Shown here piece by piece: positions 4,669-62,237 of a stretch of DNA of 64,000 nt (the stretch's first letter is position 1; the number at the start of each line of letters is the position of its first letter). Position numbers and translations under genes: made by a program. Location: positions 1 to 64,000 of the forward strand of contig NZ_NSFT01000010.1 of NCBI RefSeq assembly GCF_002294725.1, written 5' to 3'. The notes under the pieces were generated by a model that made no database searches, was not told the origin of the DNA, and saw nothing but the letters and a program-made list of their open reading frames with translations. The DNA comes from Mesorhizobium sp. WSM4313 (lineage in GTDB: Bacteria > Pseudomonadota > Alphaproteobacteria > Rhizobiales > Rhizobiaceae).

Positions 4669-4765
4669 CGGGTCAATCTTCCTGGAAGACCGACAAGAGC
4701 CGCACCGAGGAAAAAGGGCGACGCGCGACGCGCCGCCCCTGATGGTTCAGACGAGAGGAGACGGC

Positions 4766-5116
4766 TCAGGCCGCTTCTTCCCTGTCGTCATCGTCGGACT
4801 CATCCTCATCGGCTTCGTCCTCATCATCGTCGCCATCTTCATCCTCGTCGTCGGACTCATCGTCGCCCGAGGCTTTGGCTTCTTCGTCGGCGTCTTCGTC
4901 GTCGCCGTCTTCGTCGCCTTCATCTTGGTCGTCCGACTCGTCGTCGGCCGAGGCAGTGGTTTCCTCGTCGCCGTCTTCCTCGTCGTCTTCGGACGGATCG
5001 GCGGATTCGACCGCCGCGGCGGCAGCGTGGTCGAGAAGGTTTTCGGAAGCGGATTCGATCGCCGCGGCGGCGGCCGGGGTCTCTTCATTCAGGTCGATAT
5101 CGTCAACGGAATTCAT
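4766..5116 (-). CDS. Extremely acidic low-complexity protein
   Basis: A 116-residue protein. Residues 1-40 are moderately acidic with Ala runs; from about residue 41 to the end nearly every residue is Asp or Glu, with scattered Ser, Ala and Gly. The start is supported by GGAGG eight bases before the ATG at 5116. The opposite strand gives an apparent Val/Phe-rich open frame, which is the mirror of the GAN codons and has no ribosome site. Such a polyanion is surely disordered. A role as a cation buffer or nucleic-acid mimic is only a guess. Confidence 0.65.
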   Translation of the reverse strand: MNSVDDIDLNEETPAAAAAIESASENLLDHAAAAAVESADPSEDDEEDGDEETTASADDESDDQDEGDEDGDDEDADEEAKASGDDESDDEDEDGDDDEDEADEDESDDDDREEAA

Positions 5117-5156
5117 GGCATGCCTCCGTGTTTTGGGAATGTCTTACGGCGCGCCC

Positions 5157-5262
5157 CACGAAACGATTTCGGGCAACGCGCCTTAGGTCTTTGGTTGATG
5201 CATGTCGTTGCCCCAGGACCGCTCAGCGCTTCTGGACGACATGCACCTTTGTCCCATGCGGA
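5157..5262. repeat. Dispersed repeat, family D, copy 3
   Basis: The segment contains the pattern (T)GATGCATGTCGTTG...CGCTTCTGGACGACATGCAC, in which GCATGTCGT and ACGACATGC are inverted. Related segments occur at 16267-16375 and 25222-25318. It fills the gap between the acidic-protein gene and glyS; nothing else is seen there. Confidence 0.5.
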
Positions 5263-5382
5263 GGTCATCGTCATATGACTGTAAGCCGGCTCCGGCGCAT
5301 TAAATTTCGAGCGCCGAATTGTTCAAGCCTGCCGGCATCCTAGCCGATGCGGGCAAGCTCGAATGTGCGGTTTTCCGAGCCG

Positions 5383-7710
5383 TCAGCCGACGATTTTTGA
5401 AAAATCCGCGACCTGATCGGTGGCGGCGCGGATGCGGGCGAGCAGCGCCAGACGGTTGGCGCGCACGGCCTGGTCCTCATCATTCACGAGAACACGCTCA
5501 AAGAATGAATCAACCGGTTCGCGCAACACGCTAAGCGCCAGCATGGCAGCAGAAAAATCTTCGTTTTGAATTGCTTGGCCGGCTTCCTTCTCGGCCTGAT
5601 TCACCGCGGCAAAAAGCTTCTTTTCCGCCTCCTCGCGGAACAGCGCCGGCTCAACGGTCTCGGCGATTGCCGTTTTCTTCTTCTCCTCGGCGGCCAGGAT
5701 GTTGGCGGCGCGCTTGGTTCCGGCAAGCAGGTTCTTGCCCTCCTCGGTGTCGAGCAAGGAGCCGAGCGCCTCGACGCGGCGCACGATCTGCAGGAGGTCG
5801 TCGTTCGGCGATTGCCCAATCTCCCCCCTTGTGGGGGAGATTGGGCGCGAGCCCGCTGACAGCACGGCATCGATCAAGTCATGCCGTGCACCGCTTTCAC
5901 GCAGATAGACTTTCAGACGGTCGTGGAAGAAGGCAAGGAGGTCGGACGACTGGTCCGCGCCGCCTTTGAAGTTTGCAAAGGCCTTGGCGAAAACAGACGT
6001 CAGCGCCAGACGAATCCGGTTCTCGACGAGTATTCTGACCACGCCAAGAGCCGCACGTCGCAGCGCGAACGGATCCTTGCTGCCCGTGGGCTTTTCATCG
6101 ATCGCCCAGAAGCCGGTGAGCGTGTCGAGCTTGTCGGCGAGCGCGACGGCAACCGAGACCGGATCTGTCGGCACGCGGTCGGATGGGCCTTGCGGTTTGT
6201 AGTGCTCCTCGGCGGCCGCGGCGACCGACGGATGCTCGCCCTGCAGCAGCGCATATTTGCGGCCCATGGCGCCTTGCAGCTCGGGGAACTCGCCGACCAC
6301 TTCGGTTTGCAGGTCCGCCTTGGCAAGCACGGCGGCACGGCTTGCGAGCGCGGTAATCTCCCCCCTCGAGGGGGAGATGTCGCCGGAGGCGACCGTCGGC
6401 GCCAGTTCCTCAGCCAACCGCTTGATACGCTCAACGCGCGCGCCTTGCGTGCCCAGCTTCGCGTGAAAAGTCACGTTGAGATGATCGAGGCGCGCCATGC
6501 GCTGGTCGAGCGGCTTCTTCAAATCCAGGTCGAACTTCGCCGCCGATTCGTTCAGCTGGTCGAGGTCGGGCAAATCGCCTTGATCGGTCCGCCAGAAATA
6601 GAGCGCATCGGACAGGCGGGCGCGCACCACCTTGCCGTTGCCGTAGGCGATCTCCTTGCCGCCGTCGCTCGCCTCGATGTTGGCGACCAGCACGAAGCGG
6701 TTCGAAAGCGGCGATTGGCCAATCTCCCCCCTTGAGGGGGAGATGCCCGGCAGGGCAGAGAGGGGGGCCTCGCGCTGAGTCCCCTCTGTCGGCTTCCCCG
6801 ACATCTCCCCCTCCAGCGGGGAGATCGGGCGCGACGTCACGAAACACTTCTGGTTGGCGCGGATGGTGAGGCGGATGACCTCGCCCGGAATGGTGAGGAA
6901 ATCCTGCTCGAACTCGCCCATCAGCACGACCGGCCATTCCACCAGGCCGGAGACTTCCTCCAGCAGGCCCTCGTCCTCGACCAGGTCGAGGCCGTTGGCG
7001 AAGGCGATGTTGCGGGCGTCGGCCAGGATGATCTCCTTGCGCCGGTCGGCATCGAGCACGACCTTGGCCGCCTCGAGCTTCGCCACATAATCGTCGAAGC
7101 GGCGCACGGTGATCGCGCCCGGCGCGTGGAAGCGATGGCCATAGGTGACGTTGCCGGCGCGGATGCCGTCGATCTCGAAATCGACGATCACCGGCTCCTC
7201 GGTCTCCGGGCCGAAGGTGCAGACGATCGACTGCAGCGGCCGCACCCAGCGCAGCGAGCCGGGTTTCGCCGAGGCCGGCCCCCAGCGCATCGATTTCGGC
7301 CAGGGAAAGCTTTTGATGATGCCTGGCACCAGTTCGGCGATGATCTCTTCGGCCGCCCTGCCCGGCTTGGAGATGTGCGCGACGTAGAAGTCGCCCTTCT
7401 TCGGGTCGGAATGGACATGCGCCTCCCCGATCGAGGAAAGCCCGGCCTTGCGAAGGAAGCCCTGCACCGCCTGCTCGGGCGCCGTGGTCGAAGGACCCTT
7501 GATCTCCTCGCGGATGTCCTTCGAGCGCGCGGTCAGGCCACGGATGTCGAGCGCCAGACGCCGCGGCGTCCAATATTCGCGCGCCGCCTCATAGGTGAGA
7601 CCCGCCTCGACCAGACCGTCGGTCAGCATCTTCCTGAGGTCGCCGGCCGCCTTGCGCTGCATGCGGGCGGGAATTTCCTCGGAGCGGAGTTCCAAGAGCA
7701 GGTCGGGCAT
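5383..7710 (-). CDS. glyS: Glycyl-tRNA synthetase beta subunit carrying in-frame palindromic inserts
   Basis: A 775-residue beta subunit of the tetrameric (alpha2-beta2) glycyl-tRNA synthetase, responsible for tRNA recognition. It begins [17 protein letters not shown], the family's hallmark N-terminus, and ends in an anticodon-binding DALR-like region. E. coli GlyS is 689 residues; the excess is largely explained by three inserts that read ISPLEGE, ISPSRGE or ISPTRGE, each the translation of a dispersed palindromic repeat (DNA at 6712-6833, 6352-6386 and 5811-5857). The frame is kept at every insert. The ATG at 7710 has GGGGAG seven bases upstream, and a further repeat hairpin lies just before that site. 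The open frame extends to 7785 only because it translates this hairpin. The alpha subunit gene is upstream, 431 bases away, on the same strand. Confidence 0.95.
5811..5857. repeat. Palindromic repeat inside glyS, insert nearest the C-terminus
   Basis: GCCCAATCTCCCCCCTTG and its complement form a hairpin with almost no loop. In the glyS frame it encodes [13 protein letters not shown]. It is the same family as the intergenic copies near 21.9 and 38.6 kb. Confidence 0.8.
6352..6386. repeat. Palindromic repeat inside glyS, middle insert
   Basis: ATCTCCCCCCTCGAGGGGGAGAT-type hairpin (arms ATCTCCCCC and GGGGGAGAT). In the glyS frame it encodes [10 protein letters not shown]. It is the shortest of the three coding copies. 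Confidence 0.75.
6712..6833. repeat. Palindromic repeat inside glyS, large insert
   Basis: A double element of about 120 bp made of two hairpins of the CTCCCCCTTGAGGGGGAG type joined by GATGCCCGGCAGGGCAGAGAG-like sequence and its inverted counterpart. In the glyS frame it adds roughly 40 residues rich in Pro, Ser and Gly between conserved blocks. Confidence 0.8.
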
Positions 7711-56650: not shown

Positions 56651-57808
56651 ATGACCGATCCGACCCGCTTGCCCGCCGATGGAATTTTCGTCGGCCGCGC
56701 CAAGACCAGCGCCGCTTCCCATCCGCTGGTGGTGACGGTGCGGGACGGCGAGGTGATCGACATTACCTCGAGCGCGGCGCCTACGGTGCGCGATCTTTGC
56801 GAGTTGAAGGATCCGGCTGACTATCTGCGCTCGGCCAAGGGCAAGGCGATCGGCGCGCTGGAAGAAATCGCGGCGAACAGCTTCGAGGCCAAACGTGACG
56901 CCGGGAAGCCGATCCTGCTGTCGCCCGTCGACCTGCAGGCGGTGAAGGCCTCCGGCGTCACCTTCGTCGTCAGCCTGCTCGAGCGCGTCATTGAGGAACA
57001 GGCGCGCGGCTCGGCCGAAAAGGCCGACGCCATCCGCGCCGACATCGCCGGACTGATCGGCCACGATTTGTCGAAGCTCAAGCCCGGCTCGCCGGAAGCG
57101 ATGGAGATCAAGGCCAAGCTGATCTCGCGCGGCGCCTGGTCGCAATATCTCGAAGTGGGCATCGGCCCGGACGCCGAGATCTTCACCAAGTGCCAGCCGA
57201 TGGCTTCCGTCGGCTTCGGCGCCGATGTCGGCCTGCATCCGGTCTCCACCTGGAACAATCCGGAGCCCGAGATCGCCATGATCGCCGACAGCTCGGGCCG
57301 CATCGTCGGCGCCACGCTCGGCAACGACGTCAATCTGCGCGACGTCGAAGGGCGCTCGGCGCTGCTGCTCGGCAAGGCCAAAGACAACAATGCTTCGGCC
57401 TCGCTCGGGCCGTTCATCCGCCTCTTCGACGAAACCTTCTCCATCACGGACGTGAAGCGCGCCACGGTGCGGCTCAGCGTCGAGGGCGAGGACGGCTTCT
57501 CGCTGGAGGGCGCGAGCTCGATGGCCGAGATCAGCCGCTCGCCGGAAGAACTGGTCAAGGCGGCGATGGGCCCGCATCACCAATACCCGGACGGACTGGC
57601 GCTCTATCTCGGCACCATGTTCGTGCCTTCGAAGGATCGCGGCGAGAAGGGCAAGGGTTTTACGCACAAGGTCGGCGACATCGTCACCATCTCGTCGGAA
57701 AAGCTCGGCGCTCTGGTCAACCGCGTAAGGCTGTCGCCGGACTGCCCGCACTGGACCTACGGCGCCAGCCATCTGATGCGCGACTTGGCCAAGGCGGGCC
57801 TGATCTAA
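56651..57808 (+). CDS. Fumarylacetoacetate hydrolase family protein
   Basis: A 385-residue protein of the FAH fold: YLEVGIGPDAEIFTKCQPM, NPEPEIAMIADSSGRIVGAT, GNDVNLRDVEGRSALLLGKA and GTMFVPSKDRG carry the metal-binding Glu/Asp pattern. Length and pattern fit the XylX-like 2-keto-3-deoxy-sugar-acid dehydratases, which are about 385 residues, better than short FAH enzymes. An FrcBCA-like sugar importer follows on the same strand after 269 bases. The substrate is inferred, not proven. Confidence 0.85.
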   Translation: MTDPTRLPADGIFVGRAKTSAASHPLVVTVRDGEVIDITSSAAPTVRDLCELKDPADYLRSAKGKAIGALEEIAANSFEAKRDAGKPILLSPVDLQAVKASGVTFVVSLLERVIEEQARGSAEKADAIRADIAGLIGHDLSKLKPGSPEAMEIKAKLISRGAWSQYLEVGIGPDAEIFTKCQPMASVGFGADVGLHPVSTWNNPEPEIAMIADSSGRIVGATLGNDVNLRDVEGRSALLLGKAKDNNASASLGPFIRLFDETFSITDVKRATVRLSVEGEDGFSLEGASSMAEISRSPEELVKAAMGPHHQYPDGLALYLGTMFVPSKDRGEKGKGFTHKVGDIVTISSEKLGALVNRVRLSPDCPHWTYGASHLMRDLAKAGLI

Positions 57809-58077
57809 CGCCGCACCGGAAGGGCGGTTGCTTTGAGGCCAATCCGTGCAGCGGATGGTCGATGGCGCTGCTTGCCCAACGAATATCACCGCTGCTGATG
57901 CAATCTGATGGGATTGCTGATGGCGCGCGCGCCTGTGCCAACATCCATTGGCGATGGAGGCTTGCCACTGCCTGAAAAAGAGAATGCTCTAGACGTTCCG
58001 GTCGGCGCGGGCAGGAGATGCGGCCAAGGTCGCATCGCGCCGATCCAGGAGGAGAGTTCAACATGGGAGGAAATCGA

Positions 58078-59010
58078 ATGCTTTCGCGGCTAAGACTGCT
58101 CGTGCTTGGCTTGATCGCGGCTATCGCCATTCCGGCGATGGCCGAGGCCAAGACGTTCTACTGGATTTCGCATGGCGGCCCGGCCGATCCGGTCTGGACC
58201 TACTTCCTGGCCGGCGCCAAGCAATGGGCGAGCGACACCGGCAACAAGGTGAACACCTCGTTCCACAATGGCGATGTCGCCTCGCAGCAGGAGGCCGTCC
58301 GTGCCGCCATCTCAGCCAAGGCAGACGGCATCGTCACCACTAGCCCCGATCCGGGCAGCCTTGTCGAGATCGTCAAGGAAGCGCGCGCGGCCAACATCCC
58401 GATCATCAACTTCAACACGCCCGATCCGAAGGCCAACTTCAACGCCTATGTCGGCGGCGACAACGTCACCTTCGGCAAGCACTGGGCGCAATATCTGGTC
58501 GACAAAGGCCTGGTGAAGAAGGGCGATTTCGTCTGGATGCCAGTCGAGGTTCCCGGCGCCACCTATGGCGTGCAGGAAGAGGAAGGCATCAAGAGCGTGT
58601 TCGAACCGGCCGGCATCACCTATGAGGTGACCGAAGCGACGCTCGACCAGGCCGAAGTGATCAACCGCATGGTCGACTATCTCACCGCTCACAAGGGCAA
58701 GGTGAAGGCGATCATCGGCCTCGGCGACCTCGTCACCGGCTCGATCAAGCGCGTCTTCGACCAGGCCGGCGTCAAGCCGGGCGAAATCCCGGTCGTCGGC
58801 TGGGGCAACTCGCTCGACACCACGCAGGAAGTGCTGAACGGATACGTCAATGCCGGGCAGTGGCAGGACCCGCAGGCGACCAGCTATGTGGCGCTTTCGC
58901 TGGCCAACATGGCCGCCAGCGGCATTCCTCCGGGCTTCAACGTCATCACCGGCGCGCTCTATGAGAAAGACACCGCCGGCGTCTACGACAAGATCCTGTC
59001 CGGCAAATAA
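58078..59010 (+). CDS. Sugar ABC transporter substrate-binding protein
   Basis: A 310-residue periplasmic binding protein of the Peripla_BP_4 (ribose/fructose) type, with signal peptide residues 1-24. FYWISHGGPADPVWTYFLAG and ADGIVTTSPDPGSLVEIVKE are ligand-site regions. I chose ATG at 58078, which has GGGAGG seven bases upstream; ATG at 58063 also has a strong site. It opens the importer operon. Confidence 0.9.
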   Translation: MLSRLRLLVLGLIAAIAIPAMAEAKTFYWISHGGPADPVWTYFLAGAKQWASDTGNKVNTSFHNGDVASQQEAVRAAISAKADGIVTTSPDPGSLVEIVKEARAANIPIINFNTPDPKANFNAYVGGDNVTFGKHWAQYLVDKGLVKKGDFVWMPVEVPGATYGVQEEEGIKSVFEPAGITYEVTEATLDQAEVINRMVDYLTAHKGKVKAIIGLGDLVTGSIKRVFDQAGVKPGEIPVVGWGNSLDTTQEVLNGYVNAGQWQDPQATSYVALSLANMAASGIPPGFNVITGALYEKDTAGVYDKILSGK

Positions 59011-60975: not shown

Positions 60976-62010
60976 ATGACTGGACCAATGAAAGCCACCG
61001 TAGCCGATATCGCCCGGAGCTGCGGCCTGTCGACCGCGACCGTCGATCGGGTGCTCAACAACCGCCCGGGTGCAAGCGCGGCCAATCGGCAGCGCGTGCT
61101 GGAAGCGGCCAAGCAGCTCGGTTATCTGCCGACGCTCGACCAGGTCGTGCTGCCGTCGAAGCCGGCGCATCTCGAATTCTTCCTGCCGATCGGATCCAAC
61201 GCCTTCATGGCCGATCTCGCCCATCACATCGAGGATTATGCCCAGCGTCTGCCCCTGGTCGCCTCCTGCCGCATCCACAACCTTGCCGGCATTTCACCGG
61301 GCGCGCTGCAGAGCGCTGTGGAGAATCTGTCGCTCAAGGCCAATGGCGTCGGCGTGATCGCTGTCGATCATCCGCGCACGCGCAACATCCTGCGCGAGCT
61401 GGTCGATGCCGGGATCCGACTGGTCACGCTGATTTCCGACGTGCCGGCCGCGCCCCGCTCGGCCTATGTCGGCATCGATAACCGCGTGGCAGGCCGCACC
61501 GCGGCGCTGCTGATGGGTCGCTTCCTTGGCGGCCGTACCGGACATCTGGCGATGGTGGTCGGCTCGCGCTCCTATCGCGGCCACGAGGAGCGCGAGATGG
61601 GCTTTCGTTCGGTGCTCGCCGAAGAGTTTCCCGACCTCACGGTCTCAAGCGCCGCCGAGAGCAATGACGATCCGGACGCCAGCTACCGCGCGACCGTCAA
61701 GGCGCTGCACAACGAACCGGAGCTGCTCGGCATCTATTGCGTCGGCGCCGGACGGTCCGGCGTGGCCAGGGCCTTGCTCGAGGTCAAGCCGCGCAAGAAG
61801 CCGGTCTTCATCTGTCACGACCTGACCAAGGAAACACGGCGCTATCTCGTCGACGATCTCGCCGACGTTGTCATCGACCAGAATGCGCGGCTGATCGCGG
61901 AACAATCGGTGATCCGCCTGCTCGGCTCGATCGCCTCGTCGGCGCCGTATCTGACGAAGAAATTCATTGAGCCGCGGCTGATCTTCAAGGAAAACGTGCC
62001 GGTGCAGTAG
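60976..62010 (+). CDS. LacI-family regulator
   Basis: A 344-residue regulator: helix-turn-helix and hinge in VADIARSCGLSTATVDRVLN, then a periplasmic-binding-like sugar domain. It follows the importer genes on the same strand after 73 bases and probably controls them. Starts at 60976 or 60988 are both possible; neither has a strong ribosome site. Confidence 0.92.
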   Translation: MTGPMKATVADIARSCGLSTATVDRVLNNRPGASAANRQRVLEAAKQLGYLPTLDQVVLPSKPAHLEFFLPIGSNAFMADLAHHIEDYAQRLPLVASCRIHNLAGISPGALQSAVENLSLKANGVGVIAVDHPRTRNILRELVDAGIRLVTLISDVPAAPRSAYVGIDNRVAGRTAALLMGRFLGGRTGHLAMVVGSRSYRGHEEREMGFRSVLAEEFPDLTVSSAAESNDDPDASYRATVKALHNEPELLGIYCVGAGRSGVARALLEVKPRKKPVFICHDLTKETRRYLVDDLADVVIDQNARLIAEQSVIRLLGSIASSAPYLTKKFIEPRLIFKENVPVQ

Positions 62011-62107
62011 CGCGGGCGGCCACTCGCTTATTTGTCTGACGATTGATCCCGCAATTCTGCACAGCTGCTATGCAGGTTTCGCAATTGCCGAATCGTTAGG
62101 CACCTCG

Positions 62108-62237
62108 TATTTATCTGGGTGTCGGCCGTCTCCTCCTCCCAGATGTGATGCCGACGCTGAGTGCGGTACACCTCCTCCCGTGCCGTATTCGAAATCGAGC
62201 CCGCTGCCACCTCCTCCCGGCAGCGGGCTTTTTCTTT
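62108..62237 (+). ncRNA. Probable small RNA with three CCTCCTCCC loops (cuckoo/CcsR-like)
   Basis: Three stem-loops in a row. The 9-mer CCTCCTCCC occurs at 62132, 62171 and 62210, exactly 39 bases apart. In the second and third hairpins it lies in an identical ten-base loop ACCTCCTCCC, closed by eight pairs (62162-62169 with 62180-62187) and ten perfect pairs (62199-62208 with 62219-62228). The first hairpin has ATCTGGG/CCCAGAT arms. The last is a terminator with a T-run. CU-rich anti-Shine-Dalgarno loops define the cuckoo (CcsR, alpha-r14) RNAs of alphaproteobacteria. The 5' end is not known; it may be cotranscribed with the LacI gene. Confidence 0.75.
62199..62237 (+). terminator. Terminator hairpin of the small RNA and/or LacI gene
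   Basis: GCCCGCTGCC and GGCAGCGGGC are perfect ten-base arms around ACCTCCTCCC, followed by TTTTTCTTT. It is the strongest terminator in the window. Confidence 0.9.

Follow-up and report, generated by a model that had tools for sequence, protein, structure and literature searches.

A Mesorhizobium locus that appears to encode an ordinary member of the alpha-r14 (cuckoo) family of small RNAs

The stretch of DNA analyzed here (the window, 64,000 nucleotides) contains a small RNA locus that is preceded, on the same strand, by genes for a substrate-binding protein, a permease and an ATPase of an ABC importer and for a LacI-family regulator, and followed, on the opposite strand, by genes for a methyltransferase and a TetR regulator. 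Among named records, the closest come from Mesorhizobium. The LacI gene (60976..62010, + strand; Pfam LacI and Peripla_BP_4) is a neighbor that lies outside the RNA gene, from which it is separated by a gap of about 110 bases. The motif CCTCCTCCC starts at 62132, 62171 and 62210 on the + strand, exactly the coordinates, 39 bases apart, that an earlier sequence-only reading of this DNA had given, and it occurs nowhere else in the window. All three copies fall inside 87 bases, against a chance expectation of 0.60 for the whole window; three copies in the window were reached by 2 of 100 shuffles.

Each copy sits in the loop of a hairpin. Hairpin 1 (62121..62155, + strand) is two-tiered: consensus pairs from 81 relatives define a 6-pair outer stem (62121-62126/62150-62155) and a 5-pair inner stem (62127-62131/62141-62145) that closes the nine-base loop CCTCCTCCC (62132-62140). 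When the window RNA is folded as a single sequence, by contrast, some bases of this loop are paired. Hairpin 2 (62159..62190, + strand) has 11 pairs, including G-U, and hairpin 3 (62198..62233, + strand) has 11 pairs followed by TTTTT, the form of an intrinsic terminator, as the sequence-only reading had recognized. The same reading was right that these two hairpins share an identical ten-base loop, which is ACCTCCTCCC in both (62170-62179 and 62209-62218). Hairpin 3 was not listed by the terminator scan, which admits loops of 3 to 8 bases only. Compared with their own shuffles, hairpins 1, 2 and 3 have z scores of -4.0, -5.7 and -5.9, each beating all 200, and the whole RNA (119 bases, three hairpins) has a z score of -8.6 against dinucleotide shuffles.

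For covariation, relatives were collected with a pattern that requires the loop motif three times, with a T run, in no more than 124 bases, identical copies being counted once. This found 93 sequences; the alignment leaves out the 12 whose first spacing is short and holds 81 distinct sequences comprising orthologs, paralogs and copies from other genera. Since the selection pattern includes the loop motifs, fixed loops in this alignment are no evidence, and the claim for the loops rests on the 72 orthologs described below. The structure has 33 pairs, and 97.7% of the cells are paired; none of 500 shuffles scored as high. Seventeen of the 33 pairs are changed on both sides; shuffles give 7.6, and slid controls reach no more than 7, with 43.7% of cells paired at best. 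Kinship of the sequences inflates the shuffle comparison, a weakness from which the slid controls are free. Most of the covariation comes from hairpin 2, where 94.1% of cells are paired and 10 of the 11 pairs have changes on both sides. In hairpin 1 the pairs persist in 98.8% and 99.8% of cells, and 4 pairs are changed on both sides; hairpin 3 is the least variable stem (99.9-100% of cells paired).

A covariance-model search against Rfam identified positions 62117..62234 (+ strand) as ar14 (RF02344), with 74.1 bits versus a gathering threshold of 58.8 and with the model aligned over its full length (1-123 of 123); it is the sole match at the gathering threshold in the 64-kb window. The assignment to the alpha-r14/cuckoo family, for which the sequence-only reading had proposed just such a search, is thus borne out. 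The family has been described as three hairpins with CCUCCUCCC in each (PMC10746234, PMC3927594), and the Rfam consensus shares its three CCUCCUCCC hairpin loops with the window RNA, in which the motif is likewise unpaired and carried on stems that vary in sequence among relatives. The "three fused units" that had been taken for a special form are therefore the normal architecture of ar14. Because the RNA apparently also comes with its own conserved promoter, the window element appears to be a genuine but ordinary alpha-r14 RNA, and not a new fused RNA made from the neighboring sugar regulator.

Matches to ar14 were found in all 81 sampled Mesorhizobium genomes (above the cutoff in 80), and the RNA is present at the window locus in 72 of the 81. 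Among 199 genomes sampled from the order, 63 have ar14 at E <= 0.001, 29 of them above the cutoff. In the 72 orthologs, where the RNA was located by its third loop plus the T run, an anchor that cost no locus, all three CTCCTCCC loops are kept. The sequence-only reading had staked its case on conservation of the loops in relatives, and this held in part: loops 2 and 3 carry the exact CCTCCTCCC in 72 of 72, whereas three exact copies are found in just 25, the other 47 having no exact motif in loop 1, where CTCCTCCC remains. Around the best 80 LacI relatives in named genomes, the RNA was present on the same strand within the examined flank in every case; one of these 80 loci has a single exact CCTCCTCCC.

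Upstream of the RNA, conservation among the orthologs peaks at two places. One is a TGCA-N9-TGCA dyad (62058..62074, + strand), kept in 70 of 72 orthologs and lying upstream of the promoter as a possible regulator site. The other is TTGCCG-N17-TA (62085-62109), kept in 72 of 72, which we read as a predicted -35 element TTGCCG (62085..62090, + strand) and a predicted -10 element TATTTA (62108..62113, + strand), the first two bases of which, TA, are invariant. Transcription would start near 62119-62120; similarity to most paralogs elsewhere starts at about 62113-62122. A generic scan found no sigma-70 promoter at the RNA. The LsrB motif TGCA-N6-GCAT, as given for NfeR1 in the source (PMC10746234), was present upstream of none of the 72 orthologs, so the window copy is probably regulated differently from NfeR1. 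A PhaR motif was likewise found upstream of none of the 72, the window copy included. Five patterns, each allowed as many as two mismatches, were used to look for an operator shared by the sRNA promoter and the importer upstream region (57807-58080); none gave a match with fewer than two mismatches.

Whether the RNA is made from this promoter or from the LacI transcript is a question on which the sequence-only reading and our analysis part. On the one hand, the RNA could be processed from the 3' end of the transcript of LacI or of the whole importer, coupling sugar sensing to translation. It begins only some 110 bases behind LacI; LacI orthologs were found in 71 of the 81 Mesorhizobium genomes (two as partial matches), the window-type RNA accompanies all 71, and 9 of the 81 genomes have neither, so the neighborhood is conserved. 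There is also a precedent, as CcsR1-4 are described as processed from ccaF1 mRNA (PMC10253847), and in the same genome two other ar14 copies lie behind two DUF1127 genes with the same orientation; the negative result of the generic promoter scan also speaks for this explanation. On the other hand, the promoter-like pair TTGCCG-N17-TA is kept in every ortholog, and the RNA with its upstream sequence has outlasted both insertions and the loss of LacI. In three genomes (L101, L102 and L127), about 2.7 kb separates LacI from the RNA and its promoter; in one genome (G039, locus L111) the RNA and its upstream sequence persist beside a 40-residue LacI remnant; and at four loci in other genera (L317, L323, L326 and L335), LacI was not found in the examined flanks while the promoter is recognizably similar, L335 having TTGTCG instead of TTGCCG. 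These gaps, the remnant and the LacI-free loci do not support co-transcription with LacI. We therefore reject a 3'-UTR origin, for which the chances look slim, although the null result of the generic scan and the 71/71 co-occurrence stand against the rejection; a functional link between LacI and the RNA would also explain that co-occurrence. As its upstream sequence stays with it through all of these rearrangements, the RNA is, judged from the sequence, most likely a separate transcription unit.

Two further explanations concern the hairpins themselves. Hairpin 3 is strong, ends in a T run and is the least variable stem, as might be expected if it were simply the LacI terminator and the other hairpins were incidental; hairpins 1 and 2, however, covary (14 double-changed pairs) and their loop motifs have been retained by all 72 orthologs, and a terminator needs no fixed loop. 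We rejected this explanation on the stem covariation and the kept loops, and consider it scarcely credible. The exact 39-base period, from which unit duplication had been proposed, could indicate a recent origin of the RNA from a single 39-base unit copied in tandem, and the 39/39 spacing is indeed exact both in the window and in 48 of 72 orthologs. Yet the remaining orthologs have spacings of 34/39, 34/40, 39/40, 40/39 or 38/43, the genome's own ar14 paralogs have spacings of 35-41, and the unit flanks outside the loop are identical at 7/30, 10/30 and 4/30 positions, a level that shuffled flanks also reach. With flank identity at chance level and spacing this variable, we discarded recent duplication, which is very improbable; by sequence, the 39-base period is a shared module size that bears no trace of it.

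The reading that we prefer, and think very likely, is that the locus encodes a chromosomal-type alpha-r14 trans-acting sRNA with its own promoter and an end at the third hairpin, whose anti-Shine-Dalgarno loops would repress many mRNAs; its transcription, start, pairing, repression and targets are all inferred. An RNA of about 115-120 bases would be transcribed from the promoter at about 62085-62113 and would be terminated by the third hairpin. The three stems would act as scaffolds that display the CUCCUCCC loops as redundant anti-Shine-Dalgarno seeds, and the expressed RNA would block ribosome loading on many mRNAs with GGGAGGA or a similar Shine-Dalgarno sequence. The loops are complementary in sequence to such sites, as the sequence-only reading had proposed. 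Plausible targets would include the binding protein of the adjacent ABC importer, enzymes of formaldehyde oxidation and the pyruvate dehydrogenase E2 gene.

The candidate target nearest at hand is the GGGAGGA plus ATG of the substrate-binding protein gene of the adjoining importer (58065..58080, + strand), a 7-base complement of the loop UCCUCCC; among the 80 named loci, 10 of which were not readable here, 69 of the 70 readable importer binding-protein starts have GGGAGGA. In this genome, GGGAGGA-N4-9-ATG occurs at 148 sites versus 5 in the backward control, and the control set, AAGGAGG-N4-9-ATG, at 106 versus 13. GGGAGGA is a good ribosome-binding site in itself, and its abundance and conservation are thus no proof of regulation or pairing. 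The first 30 sites of each kind were read: open frames of at least 90 amino acids lie behind 24 of the 30 GGGAGGA sites and 13 of the 30 AAGGAGG sites, and 20 of the 24 were scanned against protein families. Above the curated cutoff, these 20 frames included S-(hydroxymethyl)glutathione synthase, class III alcohol dehydrogenase, pyruvate dehydrogenase E2 and the beta subunit of malate-CoA ligase; three had substrate-binding proteins as best matches, below the cutoffs, and for four no family match was found. CcsR1-4 of Rhodobacter are described as modulating C1/formaldehyde and pyruvate dehydrogenase processes, the direct target named being flhR (PMC8625941, PMC8307010), and by analogy our formaldehyde and pyruvate dehydrogenase candidates would fit the processes reported for those RNAs.

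The window copy is one of four ar14 copies in this genome. Two copies lie in tandem on contig C1 (4410-4733, minus strand, and 4738-5139 of locus L155), behind two small DUF1127 genes with the same orientation, and a copy on contig C17 (4372-5252 of locus L156) lies between a phasin gene and a tRNA, after the phasin. A second lineage of similar RNA (lineage B), mostly at 82-92% identity, is found elsewhere in other Mesorhizobium genomes; it starts at about the same base as the window RNA and has a different upstream sequence. The promoter count for this lineage covers 30 of the 32 fetched loci (L137-L154, L161, L162 and L165-L174), with the truncated L163 and L164 left out. The PhaR consensus YGCRNYGCR (PMC12542648, PMC6201568) is present within 90 bases upstream in all 30 copies read, versus 0.3 expected from shuffles, and neither TTGCCGA nor TGCA-N9-TGCA was found upstream of any of the 30. 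The PhaR-like site suggests, from sequence, that lineage-B RNAs may be wired to polyhydroxybutyrate storage. The same kind of site was also seen at several loci in other genera (L318-L320 and L322). Three CTCCTCCC motifs are present in 28 of the 32 lineage-B copies, while L161, L163, L164 and L168 are degenerate or truncated. In L163 (about 5013-5100) and L164 (about 4992-5080) a T run comes directly after hairpin 2, which suggests loss of a hairpin by deletion. A similar RNA body is also present in 17 plasmid records. Two side observations concern other elements: L157-L160 contain a related element that resembles a three-hairpin RNA, with short loops of the TCCTCCC type and a terminator stem that is nearly that of the window RNA (39.1 bits for ar14 in L157, below the cutoff), and in one genome less than 1 kb separates an ar14 RNA from an ar15 RNA (L137, about 4851-5835).

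A pattern scan of IMG/VR retrieved 59 stretches (L345-L403), many of them near-identical, on predicted viral contigs; three hairpins with the motif are formed by 46 of them but not by the other 13. Thirteen loci were submitted to Rfam, and all of these were identified as ar14. In the four contexts read by open reading frame (L359, L376, L384 and L391) the RNA adjoins a helicase-like gene; the two helicases scanned match the phage DNA helicase phrog_16, with exonuclease and methyltransferase families close by. Separately, a 40-base segment of Rhizobium phage RHph_I4 (MN988552.1, 25797-25836) matches the window terminator hairpin at 85% identity (E 2e-3). A thin literature search in an incomplete library found no paper joining prophage and the loop motif, and the review with "cuckoo RNA" that it returned mentions phage solely in connection with Hfq. 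One tentative reading, which we hold to be possible but rather unlikely, is that ar14 is a portable output module: a very similar Mesorhizobium body with three anti-Shine-Dalgarno loops would be attached to separate inputs, among them the window promoter and a promoter with a PhaR-like site that would link it to polyhydroxybutyrate storage, copies with other stems would lie 3' of DUF1127 and phasin genes, and temperate phages of related bacteria would have taken up ar14 beside a replication-type helicase gene, perhaps turning down host translation. The PhaR-site paralogs and the viral-contig copies may be worth more than the window locus itself. Very similar RNA bodies behind quite different upstream sequences make it testable how a single global anti-Shine-Dalgarno RNA can respond to several signals.

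One of the closest known systems is NfeR1 of Sinorhizobium meliloti, the founding member of ar14, which likewise has three CCUCCUCCC-loop hairpins, the third with a T run. The two differ upstream, where the window RNA has the TGCA-N9-TGCA dyad instead of the reported LsrB motif TGCA-N6-GCAT, and in hairpin 1, the two-tiered form of which sets the window RNA apart from NfeR1 and the ar14 family. The three motifs of NfeR1 are described as redundantly silencing target mRNAs, including ntrB and two ABC-transporter binding-protein mRNAs (PMC10746234). SmelA075 on S. meliloti pSymA is also ar14 by Rfam (89.9 bits, with coordinates taken from a table in PMC7143759) and is described with three motif-bearing hairpins (PMC3927594), but it has other stems and another genomic place. 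The locus adds a well-supported Mesorhizobium member to a family known from Sinorhizobium and relatives, and the alignment of 72 orthologs, together with the promoter prediction, makes knock-out and target tests easy to design. CcsR1-4 of Rhodobacter sphaeroides are stress-induced RNAs classed with the cuckoo family. They follow the DUF1127 gene ccaF1 and are processed from its 3' UTR, as described in PMC8625941 and PMC10253847, whereas the window copy follows LacI, has a conserved promoter-like sequence of its own and appears to persist without LacI, so that it would not be counted with CcsR by its upstream gene. The window RNA nevertheless resembles CcsR1-4 in having C1 metabolism and pyruvate dehydrogenase among its candidate targets, and the counterpart in this genome to the ccaF1-CcsR operon of Rhodobacter is the C1 tandem pair behind its two DUF1127 genes.
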